IMG/VR virus record: IMGVR_UViG_3300005600_000072
Location: 1-26,086 of that record
Source of the DNA: a virus
Length of the DNA: 26,086 bases
Direction: 5' to 3' (one strand)
Shown: positions 1 to 22,735 of the stretch, piece by piece
How the letters are laid out: the number at the start of each line of letters is the position of its first letter
Position numbering within the stretch: position 1 is the first letter of the stretch
The notes under the pieces: generated by a model
What the model was told of the DNA's origin: nothing
Databases searched by the model: none
Seen by the model: only the letters and a program-made list of their open reading frames with translations
Program-made: the position numbers and the translations under genes

Positions 1-409
1 GGCGGGAGAGGGCGTCGCGGATCTTCTGCAACGCTTTCTTCTCCGGGTGGAGTAGGAATGTGTCCCGCTTACCCCACTCTCGTTCACCCATCTCCAACGC
101 CTCCCTCGCCTCCGCCAACTGCTCGCGGGCTTCGGTGAGGTCGTCTTCAGTCTTGCGTAGTTCTCTGTTCAATACGCACACAACCTCGTCTAATGCACCC
201 GCAGAGTTCTCCGCCCTCTCCGCCCGCTCGGTCATCGCGGCGAGGTCGCTGCGGAGTTGGGAGATTGCACGCACGCTTCCATGACGCATCCGTTGGTAGG
301 ACTTATCCGAGGGCACGAATGCCTTGTGTTCATCGGCATCGTGGTTCAGTTCGTTGATGAGTTCGTCAATCTCCGCCTCACGCATCCGCTGTGTCTGTTC
401 ACTGGTCAT
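1..409 (-). CDS. Coiled-coil protein, C-terminus cut by window edge
   Basis: This minus-strand reading frame starts with ATG at 409 and runs off the left edge after about 136 codons without a stop. A strong ribosome site (AGGAGGAG) lies about 7 nt upstream of the ATG. The product is very rich in Glu, Arg, Ala and Leu. Residues about 45-115 show heptad-like spacing (LRSDLAAMTERAERAE, then REQLAEAREALE), so a long coiled coil is likely. I do not recognise the family. It overlaps the preceding 60-codon gene by 11 nt, which suggests translational coupling. It belongs to the accessory block downstream of the tRNAs. A scaffold-like or regulatory role is possible, but nothing in the sequence decides it. 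Confidence 0.8.
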   Translation of the reverse strand, partial: MTSEQTQRMREAEIDELINELNHDADEHKAFVPSDKSYQRMRHGSVRAISQLRSDLAAMTERAERAENSAGALDEVVCVLNRELRKTEDDLTEAREQLAEAREALEMGEREWGKRDTFLLHPEKKALQKIRDALSR

Positions 410-581
410 TCGCTTGCTCCTCCTCTAGCCAGGATAGATCCCTACTCTCTATCGGGCAGGGCCTATCCCCGTATGCTGCTTTCCACCCTTCGTCGAACTT
501 CTCTTTATCACACGGACGGCTGCGGTCCCCCTTACCGCCGGGACCAGCACGCCACTTACTACTTGTACTTTCTGTTTTCAC
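399..581 (-). CDS. Small hydrophilic phage protein, 60 aa, GTG start
   Basis: The start is GTG at 581, supported by a GGAGG ribosome site 8 nt upstream. The stop TGA lies inside the start region of the next gene (11-nt overlap). The protein is basic at the N-terminus (KTESTSSKWRAGPGGKGDR), followed by CDKEKFDEGWKAAYG. That pattern, lysine- and aspartate-rich ahead of a short aromatic helix, is seen in many small phage proteins of unknown function. No membrane segment or catalytic motif is visible. It is the first gene after tRNA-Arg and probably shares its transcript. Function unknown. Confidence 0.7.
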   Translation of the reverse strand: MKTESTSSKWRAGPGGKGDRSRPCDKEKFDEGWKAAYGDRPCPIESRDLSWLEEEQANDQ

Positions 582-607
582 TAGTGATACCTCCAGTGTT
601 TATGAAA

Positions 608-681
608 CACCCGCACTAGGAGTCGAACCTAGAACCTTCGGATTAGAAGTCCGGTGCTCTGTCCAGTTGAGCTATGCGGGC
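608..681 (-). tRNA. tRNA-Arg (anticodon UCU)
   Basis: A complete 74-nt cloverleaf on the minus strand. The acceptor is GCCCGCA paired with TGCGGGT (first pair G-U), the discriminator is G, and CCA is not encoded. The D stem is GCTC/GAGC. The anticodon loop is CTTCTAA with anticodon TCT. The T arm is CTAGG-TTCGACT-CCTAG. The anticodon stem has one C-A mismatch at pair 27-43. It would read AGA (and AGG by wobble). It lies downstream of the structured RNA region and upstream of the 60-codon gene, so it is probably cut out of a longer leftward transcript. Confidence 0.95.
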
Positions 682-836
682 AAAGCCCCTCACCGCCTAG
701 GGTGCAGACACTATGGTGGGTGCTGCCGATGAGGGGAGATCCTTGTTGTTCTTCATCTGACTGCTGGCAGACACACAAGGAGAAGCAGTTATGGGTCAGT
801 TGAGGTGTTAATGTCATTGACCCGTAGTTCAGATAA
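682..836 (-). ncRNA. Structured spacer between the two tRNAs, possible part of a large RNA
   Basis: I see no gene here. Read on the minus strand it has two long-range perfect stems. CCCCTCA (736-730) pairs with TGAGGGG (692-686), enclosing a GCAG/CTGC helix. GGGTCA (823-818) pairs with TGACCC (798-793). Together with the helices at 909-1240 and the tRNA-like element between, this suggests continuation of the same structured transcript. No covariation data are available. Confidence 0.35.
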
Positions 837-908
837 TGCTGGTGCCCGGAGTCGAACCGGGTCGTCGTTCTTTAGGGAACGAGGTCTACCACATAACCGT
901 ACACCAGC
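837..908 (-). tRNA. tRNA-like element with non-standard anticodon loop
   Basis: A 72-nt cloverleaf on the minus strand. The acceptor GCTGGTG/CACCAGC is perfect with discriminator A, and the T arm CCCGG-TTCGACT-CCGGG is perfect. The D arm GGTT/GACC has GTGGTA in its loop. Three nucleotides (TAC), not two, separate the acceptor from the D stem. The anticodon arm is odd. CGTTC pairs with GAACG and leaves a 6-nt loop CCTAAA; opening that last pair gives an 8-nt loop CCCTAAAG. A standard 7-nt loop with U33 is not possible. The anticodon is therefore ambiguous: CUA (amber-reading), AAA, or a 4-base reading. It could be a functional unusual tRNA, a decayed tRNA, or a tRNA-like domain of a larger RNA. 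Its mature 5' end would fall only about 10 nt from the next helix. Confidence 0.7.
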
Positions 909-1240
909 AATACGCATACACCCTCTGCCCACCACCGATGCCTCGGCAGTTGCTCCACAGGTACTTTACCATGCTGTGGGGTGTTGGCATTCACTTGTCA
1001 GGGAAGCGTTGTCCTCAGTGGCCAGCACCGAGGGGAATCCCCCTGTCCTCCCCGGTAAGGGAGGTGGGAGAGGTCTCTCTCCGAGACCGAAAGGGTACTC
1101 ACTTCGTTCGTCCCGGCCACCGAGCACAGCCCGATGGCAAGGGTAACACTGTCTAAGGTCTACTGTCCGCGTTAGCAGACAGCAGCGGTATTATGCCGGT
1201 GGATCTCCACCGTCTAAGGAGGAACAAGATCCTCAGTATG
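909..1240 (-). ncRNA. Candidate multi-branched structured RNA
   Basis: No plausible gene is present, but dense base pairing is visible on the minus strand. In 5'-to-3' order the helices are: a GAGGA/TCCTC hairpin (about 1209-1238); CGGTGG-AGAT-CCACCG; an 8-bp stem CTGTCTGC-TAAC-GCGGACAG with a G-U pair; then a 10-bp closing helix, 1124-1115 with 1023-1014, also with a G-U pair. That helix encloses four local hairpins: GGG/CCC with AC/GT, GGTCTC/GAGACC, CCTCCC/GGGAGG and AGGGG/CCCCT. Next is a three-way junction closed by ACACC/GGTGT (984-918) with arms CCACA/TGTGG and CTGCC/GGCAG. The two G-U pairs would be A-C mismatches on the plus strand, which favours a minus-strand RNA. Large ornate phage RNAs such as GOLLD and ROOL are known beside phage tRNAs, but I cannot assign this to a class by eye. 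Confidence 0.5.
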
Positions 1241-1243
1241 TCG

Positions 1244-1390
1244 TCACATAAGCAATGCACAGGTGATGCTCCCAGTTATGAGTATGGCTAGTAGAAACAT
1301 AGTGATTAAGTCTGGCTTCCCTGTCGTCCACCCCTGAACTCCCTTAGTCAGAGGTACTGTGTCGTTGTGCTGAGGTGGAGGGTTAGTCAT
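1244..1390 (-). CDS. Small single-pass membrane protein, 48 aa
   Basis: The start is ATG at 1390. It overlaps the stop of the upstream gene as ATGACTAA, a typical coupling arrangement; the local ribosome site is weak (TAGG). A polar, proline-containing N-terminal 28 residues is followed by one hydrophobic segment (about 31-47, MFLLAILITGSITCALL) that ends at the C-terminus. This is the shape of a tail-anchored or type II/III microprotein. It is the last gene of a five-gene operon of small proteins and lies just before the structured RNA. A role in lysis or membrane modification is possible but is inference only. Confidence 0.6.
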   Translation of the reverse strand: MTNPPPQHNDTVPLTKGVQGWTTGKPDLITMFLLAILITGSITCALLM

Positions 1391-1526
1391 CTGCCAACCT
1401 ACTGAGAACCTTCTTGCACCCATCTTCCCCAAGAGATGCATACAGAAGCGTGACAGCAAGAAGGGATATGAATAAGGCGATTGGTCCTATGAGCATCATC
1501 CGAGCAATATCAAAGAGACCCTTCAC
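1383..1526 (-). CDS. Small single-pass membrane protein, 47 aa, GTG start
   Basis: I place the start at GTG 1526 because GGAGG lies 5 nt upstream and the codon overlaps the previous stop as GTGA. An upstream in-frame ATG at 1574 has no properly spaced ribosome site and would overlap the previous gene by 52 nt. The product has a short N-terminal amphipathic stretch, one clear membrane segment (about 11-33, MLIGPIALFISLLAVTLLYA) and a basic tail with one Cys (GEDGCKKVLSRLADD). No family is recognised. Size and layout would fit a holin or small membrane regulator, without proof. Confidence 0.65.
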   Translation of the reverse strand: MKGLFDIARMMLIGPIALFISLLAVTLLYASLGEDGCKKVLSRLADD

Positions 1527-1726
1527 CCAACCCTCCGATCTTCCTGCGGTCTGTCTGCCCAGTATCCAGGACATTCCTCTATGTCCAGAGGGTCATCCTC
1601 ATCCGGGTCCATATCACACGAGAGCATGAACTCCCTCACTCTGTCCGCAGGTACAGTCACCCACTCCTGAGCAGAGAAGGAGACTATGAGGGAGAGACTG
1701 AGCCAGTGTGTTGTGCAGGTTATCAT
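1523..1726 (-). CDS. Small exported protein with signal peptide, 67 aa
   Basis: ATG at 1726 overlaps the stop of the 150-codon gene as ATGA. A run of G residues (GAGGGGGG) lies about 6 nt upstream as ribosome site. The N-terminus (MITCTTHWLSLSLIVSFSA, then QEW) looks like a signal sequence with possible cleavage after SFSA, although it lacks a basic n-region. The mature part is about 48 residues and acidic (DMDPDEDDPLDIEE), with two Cys that could form a disulfide. It is the only member of this operon likely to be secreted or periplasmic. A spanin-like role paired with the next two membrane genes is conceivable, but I see no lipobox. Function unknown. Confidence 0.6.
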   Translation of the reverse strand: MITCTTHWLSLSLIVSFSAQEWVTVPADRVREFMLSCDMDPDEDDPLDIEECPGYWADRPQEDRRVG

Positions 1727-2175
1727 GTCGCACCCCCCTCGATAAATGCGTACTTCTGTTTACGCCGGGAACGAATCTTCAATGTTCCCTGACTCGCTGC
1801 TGTCTGCCAGCGGAGGCGTTCTGTATCCCGTGCCTCCCTCCCTACCTCATCGAGCATGTGGTACAGGGTTTGGCAGAACCAGTAGCGATCCTCGTCGTTA
1901 GAGAGACACACGATCGCGGAGTACACCCAATGTCGGTGACCTGAGTGGCAGCGTCCGATGTCGAACACCTGCTCCCCACCACCATGCCTTACAAGGAGTC
2001 GAACAGATCCGTAACCACAATCAACGATACGGAAGTGGTACGCATGGGAGTCGATACCTCGTCCACACCTCCCCGGCAAGTCATATAGCAACTTGTCTGT
2101 TCCGGTTAGCGTTGGGGGTGACATTGGATAGACCTTAGGGTCTCCATTTATCGTCGGTTTTTCACAATCACACAC
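1723..2175 (-). CDS. Hypothetical Cys/His-rich protein, 150 aa, GTG start
   Basis: The start is GTG at 2175, chosen because GGAAGGG is spaced 8 nt upstream. The upstream 51-codon gene ends only 3 nt before. The protein begins with CDCEKP and is rich in Cys, His and aromatic residues spread through the chain (GRCGRG, FRIVDCGYG, DIGRCHSGHRHW, IVCLSND, YWFCQTL). It ends in a helical basic part (LDEVGREARDTERLRW, KIRSRRKQKY). The Cys and His residues do not form a clear CxxC pair set, so zinc binding is only a possibility. No family is recognised. It sits second in the operon started by the promoter at 2341-2369 and overlaps the next gene by 4 nt. Confidence 0.75.
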   Translation of the reverse strand: MCDCEKPTINGDPKVYPMSPPTLTGTDKLLYDLPGRCGRGIDSHAYHFRIVDCGYGSVRLLVRHGGGEQVFDIGRCHSGHRHWVYSAIVCLSNDEDRYWFCQTLYHMLDEVGREARDTERLRWQTAASQGTLKIRSRRKQKYAFIEGGAT

Positions 2176-2178
2176 TTG

Positions 2179-2334
2179 TTACCCTTCCATGTTTGTAGGA
2201 CTCTTGCCGTAGTCCTGGGAATCGTCTAACTGGGTGCTCCCCTCCCAGTACACATAGGAGAGAAGCTTACGGAAGACCCACACCACCCCGCTAAGGGTAA
2301 CAAGGGCCAAGAGAAAGAGAACTACACACTTCAT
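2179..2334 (-). CDS. Membrane microprotein, 51 aa, predicted leaderless mRNA
   Basis: The reading frame runs from ATG 2334 to TAA 2179. The N-terminus is a membrane segment (about 3-20, CVVLFLLALVTLSGVVWV), followed by FRKLLSYVYW and a polar acidic tail ending YGKSPTNMEG. There is no Shine-Dalgarno sequence. Instead a near-consensus promoter ends 6 nt before the ATG, so transcription should begin at or next to the start codon. It is the first gene of a five-gene operon, and the next gene begins 3 nt after its stop. The segment could be an uncleaved anchor or a signal peptide. No family is recognised. The promoter, frame and operon position together make it convincing despite its size. Confidence 0.65.
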   Translation of the reverse strand: MKCVVLFLLALVTLSGVVWVFRKLLSYVYWEGSTQLDDSQDYGKSPTNMEG

Positions 2335-2340
2335 CGGGGT

Positions 2341-2369
2341 ATTTTACCAGAATCTCTAGTGACTGTCAA
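2341..2369 (-). promoter_or_regulatory. Strong sigma-70 promoter, leaderless arrangement
   Basis: The minus strand carries TTGACA (2369-2364), a 17-nt spacer, and an extended -10 TGG-TAAAAT (2349-2341). The ATG of the 51-codon gene begins 6 nt after the -10, which is where transcription normally starts. It should drive the operon 2334 to 1244 and probably the structured RNA and tRNAs beyond. Confidence 0.85.
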
Positions 2370-2388
2370 GAGAATTACCTGTAACTTT

Positions 2389-2445
2389 TCAACATAATGC
2401 GAGAAAGGCGAAGAGGGTGAGTAGTACGCGGGTGCGGAGGGTCAT
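2389..2445 (-). CDS. 18-residue hydrophobic peptide, coupled to upstream gene
   Basis: ATG at 2445 overlaps the stop of the 77-codon gene as ATGA, with GGAGGG about 8 nt upstream. The whole peptide is MTLRTRVLLTLFAFLALC, that is, a basic start and one hydrophobic helix ending in Cys. It resembles a bare signal or anchor sequence. It ends about 20 nt before the -35 of the downstream promoter. The overlap and ribosome site favour translation, but the length is at the limit of what can be judged, and a chance frame is possible. Confidence 0.4.
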   Translation of the reverse strand: MTLRTRVLLTLFAFLALC

Positions 2446-2675
2446 GAGAACATCCCTCCTCGGTTAGGCCAGAGGTCTGGGTTAGTCTTGGTGATACCTG
2501 TAATACTCCGAGCTTCCTCAAGGAGACTCATAGGTATGTCGTACACACCATAGCTATGACGATCGTGGGACCATCGGTGTGTGCCTAGATCCTCACCATG
2601 CTTCTCCAACATCACCTGGAGCTTATTGCGGGCACGGTGGGAGGCACATCGGACGGTGGCGTGGTGTTTATCCAT
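2442..2675 (-). CDS. Hypothetical basic protein, 77 aa
   Basis: The start is ATG at 2675, supported by AAGGAAGGG about 7 nt upstream; an in-frame extension to 2717 would include this ribosome site in the coding part. The product is rich in His and Arg (DKHHATVRCASHRARNKL, HRWSHDRHSYG), with a helical middle and an Asn/Pro/Gly-rich end. It has no membrane segment and only one Cys. No family is recognised. It follows the zinc-ribbon gene at 2820-3272 after a 144-nt gap that contains a short hairpin-like repeat (2739-2752). Function unknown; a small nucleic-acid-binding protein would fit its charge. Confidence 0.7.
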   Translation of the reverse strand: MDKHHATVRCASHRARNKLQVMLEKHGEDLGTHRWSHDRHSYGVYDIPMSLLEEARSITGITKTNPDLWPNRGGMFS

Positions 2676-2819
2676 CGCGTTACCCTTCCTTGTGGGAGGC
2701 GAGGAACGAGGCCCCACCCCTTAGTGTTTCCTCTAGACACTCTTACCGTAGTACCTAGTAACTATCCGCAGAGTCGCGGGAATACCCATACCCCGGAGGT
2801 ATCCGAGGGAGGGTGTGGT

Positions 2820-3272
2820 TTATTGCTGAGGGAGGCGGGCGAGGATTGAATCGAGAACATCATACTTCATCTGTTCTACATACCCATCAGAGCATTCCCC
2901 ATCTCTCCAGTCTGCAATAACTCTTTGGGCTGTCCGCAACGCATCCAACGCCTGACCCAACAAATCATCTTCAGCACACTGGATAGCGTTGGGGCCGCAG
3001 TGCTTGGCGTAGGAGTTTACGGCGGAGGTGATGAGGTGGGCGTTGTTCTCTGTCTGCTCACACCCTACATCAACATCGTCTACACATCCAATGACAGCAG
3101 CGTAGTTTCCCCCGATTGGGTCGCTAATGATCTGGGTCTCTTGGCTGTCGATACCTGATTGACATAAACCCCACGGAGTAGGTGTGTACGGTGTTGGTGT
3201 GTTCTGTGTGTCGCAGTGGAAACACTCCCCAGACTTACCGAGAGTACATTTCGGACATTCGTTGTTGTTCAT
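2820..3272 (-). CDS. Hypothetical protein with N-terminal CxxC pairs, 150 aa
   Basis: ATG at 3272 has AGGAAGGG about 7 nt upstream. The first 20 residues contain CPKC and CFHC, a likely zinc ribbon. The middle part runs TPTPWGLCQSG, then ISDPIGGNYAAVIG, then NNAHLITSAVNSYAKHC, then a helix (LGQALDALRTAQRVIADW). This resembles a widespread phage protein type in which a TPGPW-like motif is followed by ARLIAAAPELL and a helical end. Its function is not known in other phages either. The zinc ribbon at the front is an addition here. It is the second gene downstream of the promoter at 3943-3970. Confidence 0.75.
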   Translation of the reverse strand: MNNNECPKCTLGKSGECFHCDTQNTPTPYTPTPWGLCQSGIDSQETQIISDPIGGNYAAVIGCVDDVDVGCEQTENNAHLITSAVNSYAKHCGPNAIQCAEDDLLGQALDALRTAQRVIADWRDGECSDGYVEQMKYDVLDSILARLPQQ

Positions 3273-3391
3273 CTGTTACCCTTCCTAAGTGTTTCTACAG
3301 TTACCTCTGTAGTGTGTCCCGCAGACATTCCGGGGACAATCTGAAACTCAGCACTCCCCGGTAGAGGAATGCGGAGGGGTGTCGTATTTCC

Positions 3392-3892
3392 TCATGCTGG
3401 GTAGCGTTCTTGCATTCTGGGTGAGTGATCCCAGCGGAGGAATGCTTGCGAAGCGGACACAGGCATAGACTTACGAAGTGTCTCCATCTCACCAGCTAGT
3501 TTCGTTATTGTCTGCCTCAGAGTAATGAGACGGTCATATTCGTAAGTGTCCGCCTCATCCAAAGCGTGAATATGGTTTTCCGCTTGCTGAATGGCAGCAT
3601 CAATCCCCTCAGTACCGATCCTCAACACACGGCCCCCAGGGACACGCACGCGATACTCTGGTCTGTCCGCCGAGTAATGACCTATCAATGGCACATTCGC
3701 CTCGTCCCATTCCAGAATGGCATCAAGCGAGTCCTGAACAGACTTCTGAAGCCTTACTGTGGTTTCAGTCTTTCCCTTGTATGGGAGGATTTCAGAACGA
3801 AATCTATTCAGGAGTGTTCTGCGCTTTGTCCAATACTTTAATTCGTCAGCAAGCATGGCATTAATGGGGGATTGTGTCTGTGTACCTATCAT
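3392..3892 (-). CDS. Hypothetical helical protein, 166 aa
   Basis: ATG at 3892 follows AAAGGG with about 6 nt spacing. The sequence is mostly charged and helical: residues about 12-62 (LADELKYWTKRRTLLNRF, then VRLQKSVQDSLDAILEWDEA) and about 95-142 (GIDAAIQQAENHIHAL, then RLITLRQTITKLAGEMETL). A short beta-like section with GGRVLRIGTEG lies between. There is no membrane segment or Cys. A coiled-coil or helical-bundle protein is likely. No family is recognised. It is first in the transcription unit from the promoter at 3943-3970, with a leader of about 44 nt that holds a GGTGT/ACACC hairpin. Confidence 0.8.
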   Translation of the reverse strand: MIGTQTQSPINAMLADELKYWTKRRTLLNRFRSEILPYKGKTETTVRLQKSVQDSLDAILEWDEANVPLIGHYSADRPEYRVRVPGGRVLRIGTEGIDAAIQQAENHIHALDEADTYEYDRLITLRQTITKLAGEMETLRKSMPVSASQAFLRWDHSPRMQERYPA

Positions 3893-3942
3893 CGTTTACC
3901 CTTTCGTGTTGCAGGTGTTTGCCGACACCCTTGAGATACATA

Positions 3943-3970
3943 AGTATATCATATATCGGCTCGATGTCAA
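3943..3970 (-). promoter_or_regulatory. Sigma-70 promoter for the 3892-2389 gene group
   Basis: The minus strand carries TTGACA (3970-3965), a 16-nt spacer and TATACT (3948-3943) with an upstream TGA, giving an extended -10. The expected start is near 3936, about 44 nt before the ATG at 3892. The leader contains GGTGT-CGGCAA-ACACC. Confidence 0.75.
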
Positions 3971-4145
3971 CAACTTCAACTAGAAAATGACGGAAATAGT
4001 GAAAGTATTTTGAAAAGGGGATGGGACTTCGGAGGGTGGCGTGGAGGTGGACAATAGATGAAGTTTCAGTATCTATTGAAAATGAAAAGACTCAGGCGAC
4101 CACCACCCACACCCACCTATACCCAACCACTCAGTTAGAAACATA
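3971..4145. other. Intergenic stretch, strand-skewed in its left part
   Basis: No gene is supported here. The left part is AT-rich and carries the upstream region of the promoter at 3943-3970. From about 4095 onward the plus strand is almost pure A and C (ACC/CAC runs), a composition that continues into the next small gene. A plus-strand frame from 4021 exists but has no usable ribosome spacing and is low complexity. Confidence 0.5.
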
Positions 4146-4310
4146 TCATCGCCCCACACCACCACAGGCCCCACCACAGAGACACCACACCCCCCACCCC
4201 TCTGCAGACAGCTCCACAGAGGGTGCCACAGAGGCTTCCGAGGAGGGGGTACCGGGGGGACGAGGGGGAGGGGAGTTCAGATATATCCCACCGCGAATTT
4301 CTGGGGTCAT
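4146..4310 (-). CDS. Possible small Pro/Gly/Ser-rich protein, 54 aa
   Basis: ATG at 4310 has a strong ribosome site (GGAGGGG) about 7 nt upstream; a longer frame from 4370 lacks one. The product is low complexity: RGGIYLNSPPPRPPGTP, a Ser/Glu/Ala stretch, then a Gly/Cys-rich end (WCLCGGACGG). The underlying DNA is strongly skewed (C/A on plus, G/T on minus) and contains the CAGAGACACCACA repeat. The frame could therefore be a by-product of repeat DNA. It lies directly downstream of the zinc-ribbon gene on the same strand. Low certainty. Confidence 0.35.
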   Translation of the reverse strand: MTPEIRGGIYLNSPPPRPPGTPSSEASVAPSVELSAEGWGVWCLCGGACGGVGR

Positions 4311-4777
4311 TTTCACACCCCTCCGCTGTGGGGTCCTTAGAGCCTCTGAAGACCTCAGACGACTCTCCATACCTTTTCGTTCTTCAAACGCCTCCTAGGT
4401 ACCGCCAAATGGCTCACAGAGGACGCTACACATCTGTACGCTCTGGGTTTATTCTCTTCTTCGAGCATCTGGTGCAGACACCACCACGGCTGCTCTTCGG
4501 AATCTCCACAGAGACACCACAGTCTGTACACGGTACTTCTGTCCACGGGACGCCACGGTAGTCCCACGCACATCGCTCAGAACAGAATGTGTGATTGTTG
4601 TGGTATTGGGTGAACTCCTCCCCACACTGCCGACAGTCGCAAGTCAATCCCTGGACATGGTGATGCTTGCGTGGGTTCGGCACGACACCCTGCTTATTCG
4701 TGATCTTCTTGGTAAACGCCATACTTCTCCTTCCCATTGTTACTAGGCGTATTCCCCCCTACCGCAGAGACACCACA
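4174..4777. repeat. Three dispersed copies of CAGAGACACCACA
   Basis: The plus strand carries CCACAGAGACACCACA at 4174-4189 and 4506-4521, and CCGCAGAGACACCACA at 4762-4777. They fall in different reading frames (one inside the zinc-ribbon gene, one in the small 4146-4310 frame, one upstream of the zinc-ribbon start), so the similarity is at DNA level and not a shared peptide. Role unknown. Confidence 0.6.
4426..4722 (-). CDS. Double zinc-ribbon protein, 98 aa
   Basis: ATG at 4722 follows AAGGAG at close spacing; the upstream in-frame ATG at 4737 lies ahead of that ribosome site. Two Cys clusters are clear: CDCRQCGEEF...FCSERC (about residues 28-50) and CTDCG...CTRC (about 64-86), each a CxxC...CxxC ribbon. 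The N-terminus is basic (KKITNKQGVVPNPRKHHH) and the C-terminus is too (SKKRINPERTDV). Such paired ribbons occur in small phage DNA- or RNA-binding proteins and next to HNH nucleases, but no nuclease motif is present. It is divergent from the HTH regulator across a repeat-rich region and ends in TAG. It may be a transcription factor controlled from that region; that is inference. Confidence 0.8.
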   Translation of the reverse strand: MAFTKKITNKQGVVPNPRKHHHVQGLTCDCRQCGEEFTQYHNNHTFCSERCAWDYRGVPWTEVPCTDCGVSVEIPKSSRGGVCTRCSKKRINPERTDV

Positions 4778-4837
4778 CTCCTCCGCCGTAGGCGGGGATG
4801 TCTGTGGGCGTACTGCGAGATAGACGAGGACAGAGAG

Positions 4838-4846
4838 ATTTTACCA
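4838..4846 (-). promoter_or_regulatory. Extended -10 promoter for the zinc-ribbon gene
   Basis: The minus strand has TGG-TAAAAT, identical to the -10 at 2341-2349, but no good -35 at 17 nt. Transcription would start near 4831, about 110 nt before ATG 4722. The element sits inside the inverted repeat at 4839-4856, so a bound repressor would block it. Confidence 0.5.
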
Positions 4847-4856
4847 TACAGTAAAA
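4839..4856. promoter_or_regulatory. Inverted repeat, candidate operator
   Basis: TTTTAC-CATACA-GTAAAA is a perfect 6-6-6 inverted repeat overlapping the extended -10. A related element, TTTAC-A-GTAAA, lies at 5145-5155, about 20 bp upstream of the HTH -35. Both are followed by AAATC or AGAT, suggesting one protein recognises both. The HTH protein is the obvious candidate by position only. Confidence 0.45.
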
Positions 4857-4890
4857 ATCTCCCCTCATTAGGGGTATACTGTAGTGGTCC

Positions 4891-5018
4891 CTCTTCAGAC
4901 ACTCTTAGGAGTACTCTTCAGAGAACTCTTCAGATATACTTATTCAGAGTCTTATTCTGATTATTTTGTATATTGGGGATATACAATTTTGGATCTCAAC
5001 TTCAGACACCTCTTCAGT
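4891..5018. repeat. Tandem CTCTTCAGA-type repeat array
   Basis: Copies on the plus strand begin at 4891 (CTCTTCAGA), 4902 (CTCTTAGGA), 4914 and 4926 (CTCTTCAGA), 4939 (CTTATTCAGA) and 4951 (CTTATTCTGA). The step is 11-13 bp, about one helical turn. A second small cluster has CTTCAGAC at 5000 and CTCTTCAGT at 5010. Such phased repeats usually serve cooperative protein binding (operator array or replication iterons). Confidence 0.7.
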
Positions 5019-5144
5019 ATTACCTAGGAGGGCTATTCCATCTCCCCTAGTAGTGGTCATTTTGCGACATCGTTTGTAACTCGCTGATATCGCTGTACTT
5101 ATGAGACTACCTAAAACAGCCCTAATTCTGTAATTCCTTACAGT

Positions 5145-5155
5145 TTTACAGTAAA
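5145..5155. promoter_or_regulatory. Palindrome TTTAC-A-GTAAA upstream of HTH promoter
   Basis: An 11-bp near-perfect palindrome placed 19 bp upstream of the TTGACA at 5175. It is preceded by a direct copy of the half site (CCTTACAG, then TTTTACAG). It matches the arms of the inverted repeat at 4839-4856. A likely regulator-binding site, by position and symmetry. Confidence 0.4.
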
Positions 5156-5174
5156 GATTTATTGTTCTTAGTAC

Positions 5175-5203
5175 TTGACACTCAGTCTCGTTTAGGAGAT
5201 ACT
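5175..5203 (+). promoter_or_regulatory. Sigma-70 promoter of the HTH gene, near-leaderless
   Basis: Perfect -35 TTGACA (5175-5180), 17-nt spacer, -10 GATACT (5198-5203). The ATG at 5210 comes 6 nt after the -10. The AGGAG at 5194-5198 lies within the promoter, so it would not be present on a transcript that starts at the usual distance. Confidence 0.7.
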
Positions 5204-5209
5204 TCAGCC

Positions 5210-5650
5210 ATGAAGAACACATCTGTAGGACAATTCATCCGTGCTCTGCGTCTCCAACGAGGGATCACGCAGGAGATACTGGCTGGTCGTGCGGATGTCG
5301 CCGCAGCCTCCCTGTCGTCTATCGAGTTGGATAAACATCAGGCACAGGAGGCCACAGCAGCCCGTATTCTGGATGTCCTCCGTGCTCACAAGGAGATGAC
5401 TCGGAGTGAGCAGGAGTTCGCTAAGGTGAGAATGAGGCTCCCAGAAGACTACTCCTGGGAGGCTCCGAATGTGGCCTGTATGCTCTCATGGGATCACATC
5501 GAGAGTAACAAGGCGAAGGGGTATTCTTACTGGATCAACCACTGCGTCCGTGAGATGACCCTACAGCTGGGGCAGGAGGCAATGTTAGACACCCTCCTCA
5601 TCACCGCTAAGGCTAAGGGACTCATCATCCCCGAGAACCCCAGCATGTGA
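5210..5650 (+). CDS. XRE-family HTH transcription regulator, 146 aa
   Basis: I take ATG 5210 as start; a longer frame from TTG 5162 would run through the promoter. Residues about 6-60 form an XRE/Cro-type helix-turn-helix (VGQFIRALRLQRGITQ, ILAGRADVAAASLSSIELDK, ATAARILDVLRAH), so the protein should bind DNA, usually as a dimer. The C-terminal half (PEDYSWEAPNVACMLSWDHI, KGYSYWINHCVREMTLQL, MLDTLLITAKAKGLI) is not a known peptidase or dimer domain and I do not recognise it. It is one of only two plus-strand genes, and its promoter faces the repeat array and inverted repeats, so self-control and control of the leftward genes are likely. Its end overlaps the convergent 73-codon gene by 66 nt. 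Confidence 0.9.
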   Translation: MKNTSVGQFIRALRLQRGITQEILAGRADVAAASLSSIELDKHQAQEATAARILDVLRAHKEMTRSEQEFAKVRMRLPEDYSWEAPNVACMLSWDHIESNKAKGYSYWINHCVREMTLQLGQEAMLDTLLITAKAKGLIIPENPSM

Positions 5651-5806
5651 GGATGCTTCTACCTGTCTGAGCACACAACTCATAAAGTCTGGTGCTGCGG
5701 TAAGTTGGTATATGTTGGCTCTGTTGAGGACGACGGTGTTGCTGCCTTGGGGTATGCACACCCACTCCTCATCAGGTCTCATCACAATCTGTACCACAAT
5801 ATCCAT
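5585..5806 (-). CDS. Small hypothetical protein after terminase, 73 aa
   Basis: ATG 5806 is preferred because AGGAAGG lies about 7 nt upstream; an in-frame TTG at 5824 precedes that site. It begins 26 nt after the terminase stop. The N-terminal 45 residues look like a small beta-rich domain (MDIVVQIVMRPDEEWVCIPQ, NTVVLNRANIYQL); the end is acidic and Ser-rich (GDDESLSLSGDEEGV). No family is recognised. Its last 66 nt overlap the end of the HTH gene on the other strand, so the two transcripts would be complementary there. Confidence 0.6.
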   Translation of the reverse strand: MDIVVQIVMRPDEEWVCIPQGSNTVVLNRANIYQLTAAPDFMSCVLRQVEASSHAGVLGDDESLSLSGDEEGV

Positions 5807-5832
5807 AATATATCCTTCCTGCAAATGGATAA

Positions 5833-7518
5833 CTAGCGTCGTCGTCTCCTAAATCTGGACGACTTGCTTCCTCTACTTCTGAGCATAGAGGGTGCTCTTG
5901 TTTGCGTGGAGCGGAGTCCTGCTTCGCCTAGGAACTCGTTAAGCAGTTCTAGGCGTTCTCTCTCCTCCGCTTCCTGCATAAGTATATCAGGATCTAGTAC
6001 TAAATGCTCGCGTAACACACCAACAACTCCGGCTAGTGCTTCTACACGGTCATCATGCTTCAGACACCCACGCTCTCTCTGCATACGGGTGACCTGCTGC
6101 ATAAGTTCCTGATCTCTTGCTACTCGTTCATCAAGAACCACCCGGTGACTGTTCATAGCAGGTTCCAGGGTCTCGATGATGCGGATCTCCTTCTGGCCAG
6201 TATTGTGCACAGGGAAGACTTCTATCTTCAGACCTGTACGCAGAAGCATACCACGAAGTTTATCTATATACATGGAGCCGTCTTTACCACCGCCCCAGTT
6301 AGACTCTACATGGATCTCCTTCACATCCTGCTCTATCGCAGTGGTGATGAGTTTCATCATGGTCGCGTCATCGTACCCACCCTTCATACCACCACCTGCG
6401 GTGATAAAGATGTGAGCGTTGAGCGTCTTCCCTACATAGTACCCCACCTCGTCAGCACCCATACCTGCTGGGTCCACATACATGATGGAGCGTTCGTAGG
6501 GTGCGTACTCCTCATCTACATGGATGGGCCAGTAGAACTGGTCATTACCCATACCAACGCTGGGGATCTCCCGTGCTGGCTTGGTCTTACCGTGGAGGAG
6601 TCTGCGGGGGGCCATAGCCCCGTCTACATTCCAGACGATGAAGTCACGGAGTTTCAGGGGGTAGCGAGTCTCATCCGCTGCTGCCGGGTCCAGAAGCATC
6701 TGGAGGCTGTAGCGGGAGAGGCCCTGCTGTGCTCTCTTCTCCAGCAGTTCTGCACGCCCGAACTTCTCAGGCATGACTGGATCGCCGGGCTGTGAGCGTG
6801 TTCTCTGCATCTCCTTGAAGACGAACTCAGGCACATGCTTGCTGTCCTTGTCGTTCTTCGGATCTGGATATTCTGCGGGAACTCGGGTGATGATGTACTT
6901 CTCAGGAAGTCCGAAGTACACAGAGTCTTCCGTCTGAGGTGTTCCTACGCCGAGGATCTCACCTCCTGGGTTGATGATGTCTTCCAGTTCCCTGAAGACT
7001 TCCTTGATCTTCTCCCGTGCTTCTACGGTGACTGAGTTCTGAGGGATCTCGATATCGTCTGGGATAGCCCAGTCAACATGGTTCCCTGTGATCTGAGATC
7101 CAACACCGTAAGCAACCACAGAGGGCTGTGTGTCGCTCTTATCTTGACGACACCCTACCGTGAACCTCTTACGCCCAGCAAGATCATCCATGCTAGGTAC
7201 GAGGTGGGAGAGGAAGTCATAGGTCTTGATGGTTCTGAGCATGGCTGATACAATGTCGATAGACCGCTGCTCTCTGGCTGATAGAATCATCCCGGTGGAA
7301 TCAGGTTCCCGGTACAACTTCCACACCCCGTAGGATGCATTCATCTCAGTCTTACCCTCCCCTCGGAATGCAAGGAGCACTCGTCGGAGATTGGGACTCA
7401 TGTAGAAGTTTCTGGCAATCTGAACTTGGATCGGGAACGGCTCCATCTTCCGAGGTTCCCAGAGCATTCTGAGGAAGATTTCATAGTCGTCAGCCATCTC
7501 TTGGATGATTGGCCGCAT
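5833..7518 (-). CDS. terL: Terminase large subunit (T7 gp19-like), 561 aa
   Basis: The DNA-packaging motor. It cuts concatemers and pumps DNA into the procapsid through the portal. Visible motifs: Walker A FRGEGKT (about residues 51-57), Walker B with catalytic acids VDWAIPDD (about 148-155, compare the ADD motif of T7 gp19), and an RNase H-like nuclease with acids in MYVDPAGMGADE (about 347-357), HVESNWGGG (about 403-411) and KHDDRVEAL (about 487-495). Length is close to T7 gp19 (586). The frame opens with TTG at 7563 but no ribosome site precedes it; ATG 7518 has AGAGAGGA about 4 nt upstream, so I use that. It is the last gene of the virion module, as in T7, and ends in TAG. Its C-terminus is very basic (SRGSKSSRFRRRRR). 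Confidence 0.96.
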   Translation of the reverse strand: MRPIIQEMADDYEIFLRMLWEPRKMEPFPIQVQIARNFYMSPNLRRVLLAFRGEGKTEMNASYGVWKLYREPDSTGMILSAREQRSIDIVSAMLRTIKTYDFLSHLVPSMDDLAGRKRFTVGCRQDKSDTQPSVVAYGVGSQITGNHVDWAIPDDIEIPQNSVTVEAREKIKEVFRELEDIINPGGEILGVGTPQTEDSVYFGLPEKYIITRVPAEYPDPKNDKDSKHVPEFVFKEMQRTRSQPGDPVMPEKFGRAELLEKRAQQGLSRYSLQMLLDPAAADETRYPLKLRDFIVWNVDGAMAPRRLLHGKTKPAREIPSVGMGNDQFYWPIHVDEEYAPYERSIMYVDPAGMGADEVGYYVGKTLNAHIFITAGGGMKGGYDDATMMKLITTAIEQDVKEIHVESNWGGGKDGSMYIDKLRGMLLRTGLKIEVFPVHNTGQKEIRIIETLEPAMNSHRVVLDERVARDQELMQQVTRMQRERGCLKHDDRVEALAGVVGVLREHLVLDPDILMQEAEERERLELLNEFLGEAGLRSTQTRAPSMLRSRGSKSSRFRRRRR

Positions 7519-7653
7519 AGCGTCCTCTCTGACGCCGAATTCTAGGCGTTCTAGGCGTTTCAAGTAGTAAAAGGTATCTGAGGTCGGTTAGGGCCTCAAA
7601 TGCCTGTAGCGTCCCCTGAGAGGCTCCTGAGAGACCTCCCCTAAACTGGGGGC

Positions 7654-7878
7654 TTATTTGTTGAGTTGTGCTGCGAGTTCTGCTGCACGCTTGGCAGCGG
7701 GATCGTCGGAGGGGATGCCCTCAGTTCTGAAGGGCTTTACATCCACCTTGTCGAGGAACTTCACGATCTCCCCAACGATCTTGGACTCCAGTTCAGAGTG
7801 CTCATCTTCTAGGAGGATGGTGAATCTCTTGACTGCTGCCCAGTACAGACGGTCCTCGGTGTAGTTAGGGTCTCTCAT
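7654..7878 (-). CDS. Probable terminase small subunit (T7 gp18 position), 74 aa
   Basis: ATG 7878 has AGGAAG just upstream and overlaps the previous gene by 14 nt. The protein is short and helical: DRLYWAAVKRFTILLEDEHSELE, then IVGEIVKFLDKVDVKPFRTEG, then a charged Ala-rich tail (AAKRAAELAAQLNK). Its place directly before the large terminase and its size (T7 gp18 is 89 residues) suggest the DNA-recognition subunit. Small terminases of this group share little sequence, so this is a context call. A 135-nt gap with short inverted repeats (CCCC-AGTTTA-GGGG; TGAGG/CCTCA) separates it from terL. Confidence 0.55.
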   Translation of the reverse strand: MRDPNYTEDRLYWAAVKRFTILLEDEHSELESKIVGEIVKFLDKVDVKPFRTEGIPSDDPAAKRAAELAAQLNK

Positions 7879-8254
7879 TACTTCCTGCTTGTGTATTTAG
7901 TAGTAACTTTCGTTCACTTTCTAGGGTGTCCATCCTTGACTTCAGCAGTTCTATCTCGAAGGTGAAGTAGTCAAGGCGTGCTTGGATGGTGGTGAGGCTT
8001 TCCTTCTGGTCGTCTGAGGCGGATGCCACCTTCTCGAAACCCTCCTTCAGCACTGTGGAGAGTTCTGAGAGGGAGTTCTTCAGTGTGCCGACATCGTTCT
8101 GGATGACTGCTTGGTTGGTGACGATCTTCTGCCACTCACCACCGGGACCGAAGACCTGGTTCTGGAGTGCTGATGCCCCACCGCCGACGATGCCAGCGGA
8201 GAGGAGCACGAGGAAGATACCTTTGTTCGTGTTAAGGTCTATAGATCCAGCCAT
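7865..8254 (-). CDS. Membrane-anchored coiled-coil protein, lysis-region candidate, 129 aa
   Basis: The start overlaps the stop of the upstream gene as TAATG. A short polar N-terminus is followed by one membrane segment (about 12-31, KGIFLVLLSAGIVGGGASAL). Then come about 90 residues of predicted coiled coil (VGTLKNSLSELSTVLKEGF, LTTIQARLDYFTFEIELLKSRMDTLESERK). This is the general shape of an inner-membrane spanin (Rz) or of a holin with a long soluble domain. In T7 the holin, gp18 and Rz genes lie between the fibre and terminase genes, as here. No family signature decides between these roles. Confidence 0.6.
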   Translation of the reverse strand: MAGSIDLNTNKGIFLVLLSAGIVGGGASALQNQVFGPGGEWQKIVTNQAVIQNDVGTLKNSLSELSTVLKEGFEKVASASDDQKESLTTIQARLDYFTFEIELLKSRMDTLESERKLLLNTQAGSNERP

Positions 8255-10736: not shown

Positions 10737-10767
10737 GTCAGGTTCCCATGTTTGTTGTTTGTGTAAA

Positions 10768-10801
10768 GAAAAACCCCTCCAGGGCTTTCACCGAGGAGGG
10801 G
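10768..10801 (-). terminator. Intrinsic terminator between gp16-like and fibre genes
   Basis: The minus strand has CCCCTCC, a 14-nt inner part with a GG/CC pair, GGAGGGG, then TTTTTC. It lies 110 nt after the gp16-like stop and about 30 nt before the fibre start. Confidence 0.85.
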
Positions 10802-10814
10802 CGTGTGGTAGAAT
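10786..10814 (+). promoter_or_regulatory. Extended -10 promoter, leaderless, for the plus-strand microgene
   Basis: TGG-TAGAAT (10806-10814) is followed after 6 nt by ATG 10821. The -35 region at 17 nt spacing (TTTCAC, 10786-10791) is poor, as is tolerated with an extended -10. The design matches the promoter at 2341-2369. The upstream part overlaps the terminator stem of the opposite strand. Confidence 0.45.
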
Positions 10815-10820
10815 GTGTAG

Positions 10821-10937
10821 ATGTACTACAAGAAAGATGAAGAAGATCCTATTTGGAAGAAGATGCTCATCGCATGTGTTCTTGCCTTGCTTGTCCCCCT
10901 CGTCGGAGGACTACTCTTCAGAGGGATCTTTGGATGA
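10821..10937 (+). CDS. Plus-strand membrane microprotein, 38 aa
   Basis: The frame ATG 10821 to TGA 10937 encodes a charged N-terminus (MYYKKDEEDPIWKK), one membrane helix (about 15-32, MLIACVLALLVPLVGGLL) and a short basic end (FRGIFG). It runs against the late genes, and its last 27 nt overlap the end of the gp16-like gene. There is no close Shine-Dalgarno; GGAGGGG about 20 nt upstream is too far. The extended -10 placed 6 nt before the ATG predicts a leaderless mRNA. The clean topology and promoter favour a real gene, but a chance frame is possible. Function unknown. Confidence 0.5.
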   Translation: MYYKKDEEDPIWKKMLIACVLALLVPLVGGLLFRGIFG

Positions 10938-22486: not shown

Positions 22487-22672
22487 GTTGCACTCCTTGT
22501 GAAGAGATTTCTGTAGTGGGATCTCCAGTCCGGGTAGAGGTCACGCAGAGTTCACCAAGGAGAGATGTTCTGCATGTTCGTAGAGGGGACATAGACACAC
22601 AAGACTCATGCTGGGGACGGGTAGCCGTGCCATACTCTGAGGGTGTGCTGGAGGCGGTACGCATGTACCAAT
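22487..22672 (-). other. Long capsid mRNA leader region
   Basis: This stretch lies between the scaffold terminator and the capsid start. No gene is supported. A GGTAC-GCAT-GTACC inverted repeat lies at 22656-22669 beside the terminator. T7 has its strongest late promoter in this place, so a phage-polymerase promoter may be here, but I cannot identify one. Confidence 0.4.
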
Positions 22673-22707
22673 AAGAAAACCCCACCCTCCGGTTAGGGAA
22701 GGTGGGG
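22673..22707 (-). terminator. Intrinsic terminator between scaffold and capsid
   Basis: The minus strand has CCCCACCTTCC, loop CTAACC, GGAGGGTGGGG, then TTTTCTT. The stem is 11 bp with a single G-U pair, the strongest terminator in the window. It lies 29 nt after the scaffold stop and would limit capsid expression from upstream transcripts. Confidence 0.92.
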
Positions 22708-22735
22708 CAATGGAGGATCATAAGGGGTGGATGAT

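Follow-up and report, generated by a model that had tools for sequence, protein, structure and literature searches.

A compact minus-strand RNA fold predicted beside a degenerate tRNA and tRNA-Arg in the early region of a T7-like phage

Introduction

Does a long untranslated interval beside a tRNA gene in a T7-like phage encode a structured RNA and, if so, is that RNA one of those already described from such sites? Two phage RNAs, GOLLD and ROOL, occur next to tRNAs and have no known function, and the original prediction, made for positions 686–1240 of the locus studied here, was of about 550 nt of gene-free, densely structured minus-strand RNA with an embedded tRNA, which might belong to one of these families or to a new class. 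The window, that is the whole stretch of DNA analysed, is the 26,086-nt IMG/VR record IMGVR_UViG_3300005600_000072, in whose positions all coordinates are given. This 26-kb virus contig is a fragment of a T7-like podovirus comprising its late and early parts, and all of its recognisable genes lie on the minus strand, including T7-like genes for the terminase large subunit (TerL), tail fibre, tail tubular proteins, major head protein, scaffold and head-tail adaptor. We find that the observation holds for a shorter stretch, located elsewhere than described: a core of ~330 nt (912–1243) that is followed by a degenerate and then an intact tRNA (Table 1).

Table 1 Features of the RNA region and its surroundings, from 5′ to 3′ on the minus strand.
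Feature	Position	Strand	Basis
Sigma-70-like promoter, TTGACA-17-TAAAAT, 11/12	2341..2369	minus	consensus match only
Small membrane-like gene of 48 aa, the last ahead of the RNA	1244..1390	minus	sequence reading
Non-coding interval, including tRNA-Arg	595..1243	minus	ORF list, codon score, start-site context
5′ hairpin pair	1139..1243	minus	z −4.3, 0/200
Multi-branched domain, 12-bp closing helix 1124–1113/1025–1014	1010..1128	minus	1003–1138: z −3.8, 0/200
Linker with small hairpins 979–955, 950–931	912..1002	minus	no excess stability, z −0.42
Degenerate tRNA	837..908	minus	RF00005 34.3 bits (lax search of 820–925 alone); ARAGORN 'tRNA-???'
Spacer with three hairpins 823–793, 781–740, 736–686	686..836	minus	weak excess stability, z −1.9
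Intact tRNA-Arg(UCU)	607..682	minus	ARAGORN; RF00005 66.6 bits
First gene past tRNA, 60 aa, GTG start	399..581	minus	GGAGG SD at ~590–594

Results

An untranslated interval within the early genes

The region is essentially gene-free, as had been claimed: about 650 nt separate the stop codon at 1244 from the Shine-Dalgarno (SD) sequence, at ~590, of the gene that starts with GTG at 581, and by codon score no frame inside the interval has clearly gene-like codon usage. Upstream, each gene overlaps the next as far as 1244, where the last of them ends; the start of this last gene overlaps its predecessor's stop. Because the neighbouring early genes overlap or adjoin strong SDs, 650 untranslated nucleotides are out of place here. 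An extended ribosome-site motif common to the early genes, AAGGGTAA(C), directly precedes minus-strand start codons at four sites (3903, 3283, 2687 and 2186); these four are among seven copies in the record over both strands, against 0.36 expected.

The best promoters within positions 1–8000 lie on the minus strand upstream of the RNA region, at 2369 (Table 1) and at 3970–3943, the latter being a second strong sigma-70-like match. Judged by its sequence, the promoter at 2341–2369 likely drives a transcript of the RNA region, and no terminator-like site was found on the minus strand between 2341 and 595. From this we expect early transcription of the region, driven by host-type promoters. No T7-type phage promoters were detected as repeats in the record. 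Within 1243–1500 no promoter-like site was found, which counts against reading the region as an orphan RNA.

The minus strand folds with excess stability, concentrated in 1003–1243

The 686–1240 region folds on the minus strand with −224.2 kcal/mol (z −4.1), better than every one of 100 shuffles, in line with the original prediction, and its plus strand is weaker (z −2.0). It was the lowest among 555-nt windows sampled across the record (mean z −1.5, s.d. 1.2). One largely protein-coding 555-nt window of the record is nearly as extreme at z −4.6, so that fold excess by itself is not unique, and so is one 329-nt window (z −4.3); both weigh against an orphan RNA. The core itself, taken as 912–1240 or 912–1243, beats 200 of 200 shuffles on the minus strand, with z of −4.4 under default, −3.8 under Andronescu and −5.3 under Langdon parameters, compared with −2.0, −1.6 and −3.0, respectively, on the plus strand. 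This strand-specific energy under three models, together with the genome context, supports the idea of a minus-strand structured RNA, although its core is smaller than described and lies elsewhere. Mean positional ensemble entropy of 912–1243 was as low in 16 of 60 shuffles; the fold is thus stable, yet not unusually well defined, a further point against an orphan RNA.

Dissection of the minus strand, with 200 shuffles for each segment, located the signal in 1139–1240 (z −4.3) and 1003–1138 (z −3.8), neither of which was equalled by any shuffle. Segment 837–909 gave z −2.9 and 686–835 only z −1.9, whereas 71 of 200 shuffles folded as well as 912–1002 (z −0.42). The fold signal thus sits mainly in 1003–1243 and is weak in 686–835.

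Within the 5′ hairpin pair, 1212–1207/1202–1197 (6 bp) and 1185–1175/1170–1160 (11 bp, UAAC tetraloop) are predicted with pairing probabilities of 0.94–1.0. The multi-branched loop with four hairpins that had been drawn by hand is also predicted (hairpins 1100–1083, 1082–1067, 1064–1047 and 1044–1031), and its probability is kept in wider contexts; its closing helix has 12 bp rather than 10 and contains G-U pairs whose plus-strand counterparts would be A-C. The claimed three-way junction at 918–984 does not stand, for 912–1002 shows no excess stability (z −0.4) and the closing pairs tested for it, 984–979/918–923, have probabilities of at most 0.28. As the flanks were changed, most core helices stayed at probabilities of 0.7 to 1, namely hairpins 1212/1197, 1185/1160, 1064/1047 and 736/686, the 12-bp helix 1124/1014 and the acceptor of the degenerate tRNA. 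Two candidate features were set aside: a long-range closing helix, 1311–1269/561–622, had a probability of 0.84–0.97 in one window and at most 0.06 in wider ones, and a repeat, CCUUAGACRGUG (1219–1208 and 1158–1147), is of a kind of which we estimate that ~0.6 pairs would occur by chance.

A degenerate tRNA lies inside the region and an intact tRNA-Arg flanks it

The embedded tRNA of the original prediction corresponds to a tRNA relative at 837–908, but this copy is degenerate and the intact tRNA-Arg instead flanks the region. The score of the degenerate copy exceeds the RF00005 gathering score of 29 in the lax search given in Table 1, default filters having missed it. Acceptor, D, anticodon and T stems are all present, with one extra base ahead of the D stem, and on this sequence evidence 837–908 is a genuine tRNA relative. 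As assembled, its anticodon loop, CCUAAA, has 6 nt, one base short, and lacks U33, a base that is near-universal in tRNA anticodon loops; ARAGORN gives a two-base anticodon. With a 6-nt loop, it is unlikely to function as a normal decoding tRNA. In the late genes AGA and AGG account for 36% of Arg codons, a share that would make tRNA-Arg(UCU) useful.

In six phage tRNA arrays (L091, L092, L102, L103, L105 and L112) we observed a tRNA-Arg(CCU) with loop CCCCUAA, in which C replaces U33, and in two others (L094 and L111) a comparable loop is read by ARAGORN as CUA (Pyl); the arrays with the CCCCUAA loop came from a search pattern selecting for that loop and imply no frequency.

The region matches no known RNA family other than tRNA

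Rfam covariance models for GOLLD, ROOL, OLE and HEARO, the comparison proposed at the outset, were all without a match, and in whole-Rfam scans, some of them lax, the rest of Rfam gave no credible match in the region apart from tRNA. The GOLLD model (RF02032) found nothing in the record at E≤10, and since control genomes gave none over the cut-off either, the sensitivity of this direct search is unproven; the ROOL model (RF03087, 574 positions) likewise had no match in the record, nor in control genomes. As neither family was matched at E≤10 directly or appeared in the whole-Rfam scans, we do not claim the membership in GOLLD or ROOL that had been suggested.

There are nevertheless likenesses. 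ROOL, a ~600-nt class that is phage-encoded and often lies near tRNA islands (PMC12286853), resembles the region in its comparable length, phage origin and proximity to a tRNA. The region shares with GOLLD the trait of siting beside tRNAs in a phage (here tRNA-Arg, the degenerate tRNA and phage genes). Since the GOLLD linker region sometimes contains tRNAs (PMC12286853), to which the degenerate tRNA would correspond, GOLLD with tRNAs in its linker is, by analogy of layout, the closest comparison. Many GOLLD members, however, are longer than 800 nt and share a universally conserved 3′ region, whereas here just 150 nt, weakly folded, follow the degenerate tRNA on its 3′ side.

One hairpin, 1185–1160, agrees with the terminator stem-loop of Pseudomonas rrn operons in 19 of 20 bases, those of the UAAC loop among them. 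That terminator accounted for most of the 117 matches to this hairpin in a scan of bacterial genomes. The phage hairpin differs in having no U-tract and unrelated flanks, and the remaining matches are same-loop hairpins; because the same loop occurs in unrelated contexts of other genomes, we regard the likeness as a shared hairpin type.

Relatives of the phage and of the RNA region

Among the contigs sampled the lineage is isolated, IMG/VR offering near-identical contigs plus a background of relatives at ~35%. TerL is only ~35% identical to that of the nearest phages, and its alignment comprised at least 80 relatives, all ~35% identical among the matches listed. Neither blastn, nhmmer nor a single-sequence covariance model (run over 91 sources, the record and 90 loci) found a match to the RNA among those TerL relatives. 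Scans with TerL and the tail-tube protein returned only near-identical contigs, none covering 1–4155; lineage-specific TerL patterns returned the same contig only, and no relatives turned up for a neighbouring early protein. RNA patterns gave nothing, or unrelated tRNAs, in viral contigs and no homologue in bacterial genomes, and blastn against phages and plasmids gave short chance matches at most; such pattern scans need exact matches, so that diverged homologues can escape them. With no homologue found by the patterns tried in viral contigs, phages, plasmids or bacterial genomes, the fold has no covariation in its favour and selection on it is unproven, which we count against an orphan RNA.

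Only one sister contig (L002) runs beyond the late genes in this direction. It is 99.97% identical to the record across 13.4 kb of late genes and departs at record position 4156 (13408–13781 of L002) into an early region of another kind, which carries a TTGACA...TATAAT-like promoter of its own, so that the closest sampled strain does not show the RNA region. The switch at 4156 suggests either that modules have been exchanged where late and early regions meet or that a genome end lies there.

A possible early non-coding RNA, and other ways to read the locus

We tentatively favour, at something short of an even chance, an early non-coding structured RNA that is co-transcribed with the tRNAs, freed by RNase P and active as RNA itself. 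Host polymerase would make an early transcript containing the non-coding segment, in which ~1243–909 (minus strand) would fold compactly into two hairpins and a multi-branched domain, with the degenerate tRNA and then a presumably working tRNA-Arg(UCU) on its 3′ side. RNase P cuts the 5′ ends of tRNAs, and cuts at ~908/909 and 681/682 would leave a stable RNA of roughly 330 nt. Our guess is that the released RNA would act in trans or as a structural RNA, like other phage RNAs by tRNA islands.

The same hairpins could instead be recognition or protection structures of an early polycistronic mRNA, serving RNase III or RNase P cleavage or 5′ stabilisation, with the excised RNA having no function. 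The early mRNA of T7 is processed at RNase III hairpins, and the present locus likewise has intergenic hairpins in an early transcript of a T7-like phage; the hairpins are strong and sit between early genes and tRNAs, and hairpin 736–686 stops 4 nt ahead of tRNA-Arg. Against such a cis-acting leader or processing element, a serious rival though less likely than the favoured reading, stands the size of the structure, larger and more branched than the T7 hairpins, its ~120-nt multi-branched domain exceeding what a cleavage hairpin needs. An equally serious rival, and no more likely, is a decayed tRNA array, in which tRNA-Arg is intact, a second tRNA is broken and everything else has worn down to spacer whose apparent structure is leftover or chance. 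That account would fit the indels in the tRNA relative at 837–908, the slight advantage of 686–835 over shuffles and the similar fold excess of some windows elsewhere in the record; it fits less well with the strongest fold, 1003–1243, in which lax Rfam scans detected no tRNA, or with a core better than all 200 shuffles, which eroding sequence should not be.

A hidden small protein gene, its fold incidental, seems very improbable. The 53-aa GTG frame at 966–1127 (minus strand), for example, survives the codon-usage test, because its codon score of −0.04 is on a par with that of the early gene 1723–2175 (−0.05), but it lacks the AAGGGTAAC or GGAGG-type SD found at other early genes, and GC-rich hairpins explain its Pro/Gly-rich composition. 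As for the favoured non-coding RNA, it is quite doubtful that it represents a new class, one of large structured RNAs that phages carry independently of GOLLD and ROOL, with the degenerate tRNA forming a built-in domain and with production early in infection by a T7-like phage. If it did, a structurally unrelated RNA would occupy the GOLLD/ROOL niche, suggesting that tRNA loci repeatedly recruit large structured RNAs, and a small, compact lytic T7-like phage would be a convenient system for testing why.

Other structured sites in the record

Terminator-like minus-strand hairpins followed by a T-run occur in two intergenic gaps, at 10737–10910, upstream of the tail fibre gene, and at 22487–22735, between the scaffold and head genes. 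The stretch 5361–5520 gives a strong signal of folding on either strand, with z of roughly −3.6 to −3.7 for 160 nt.
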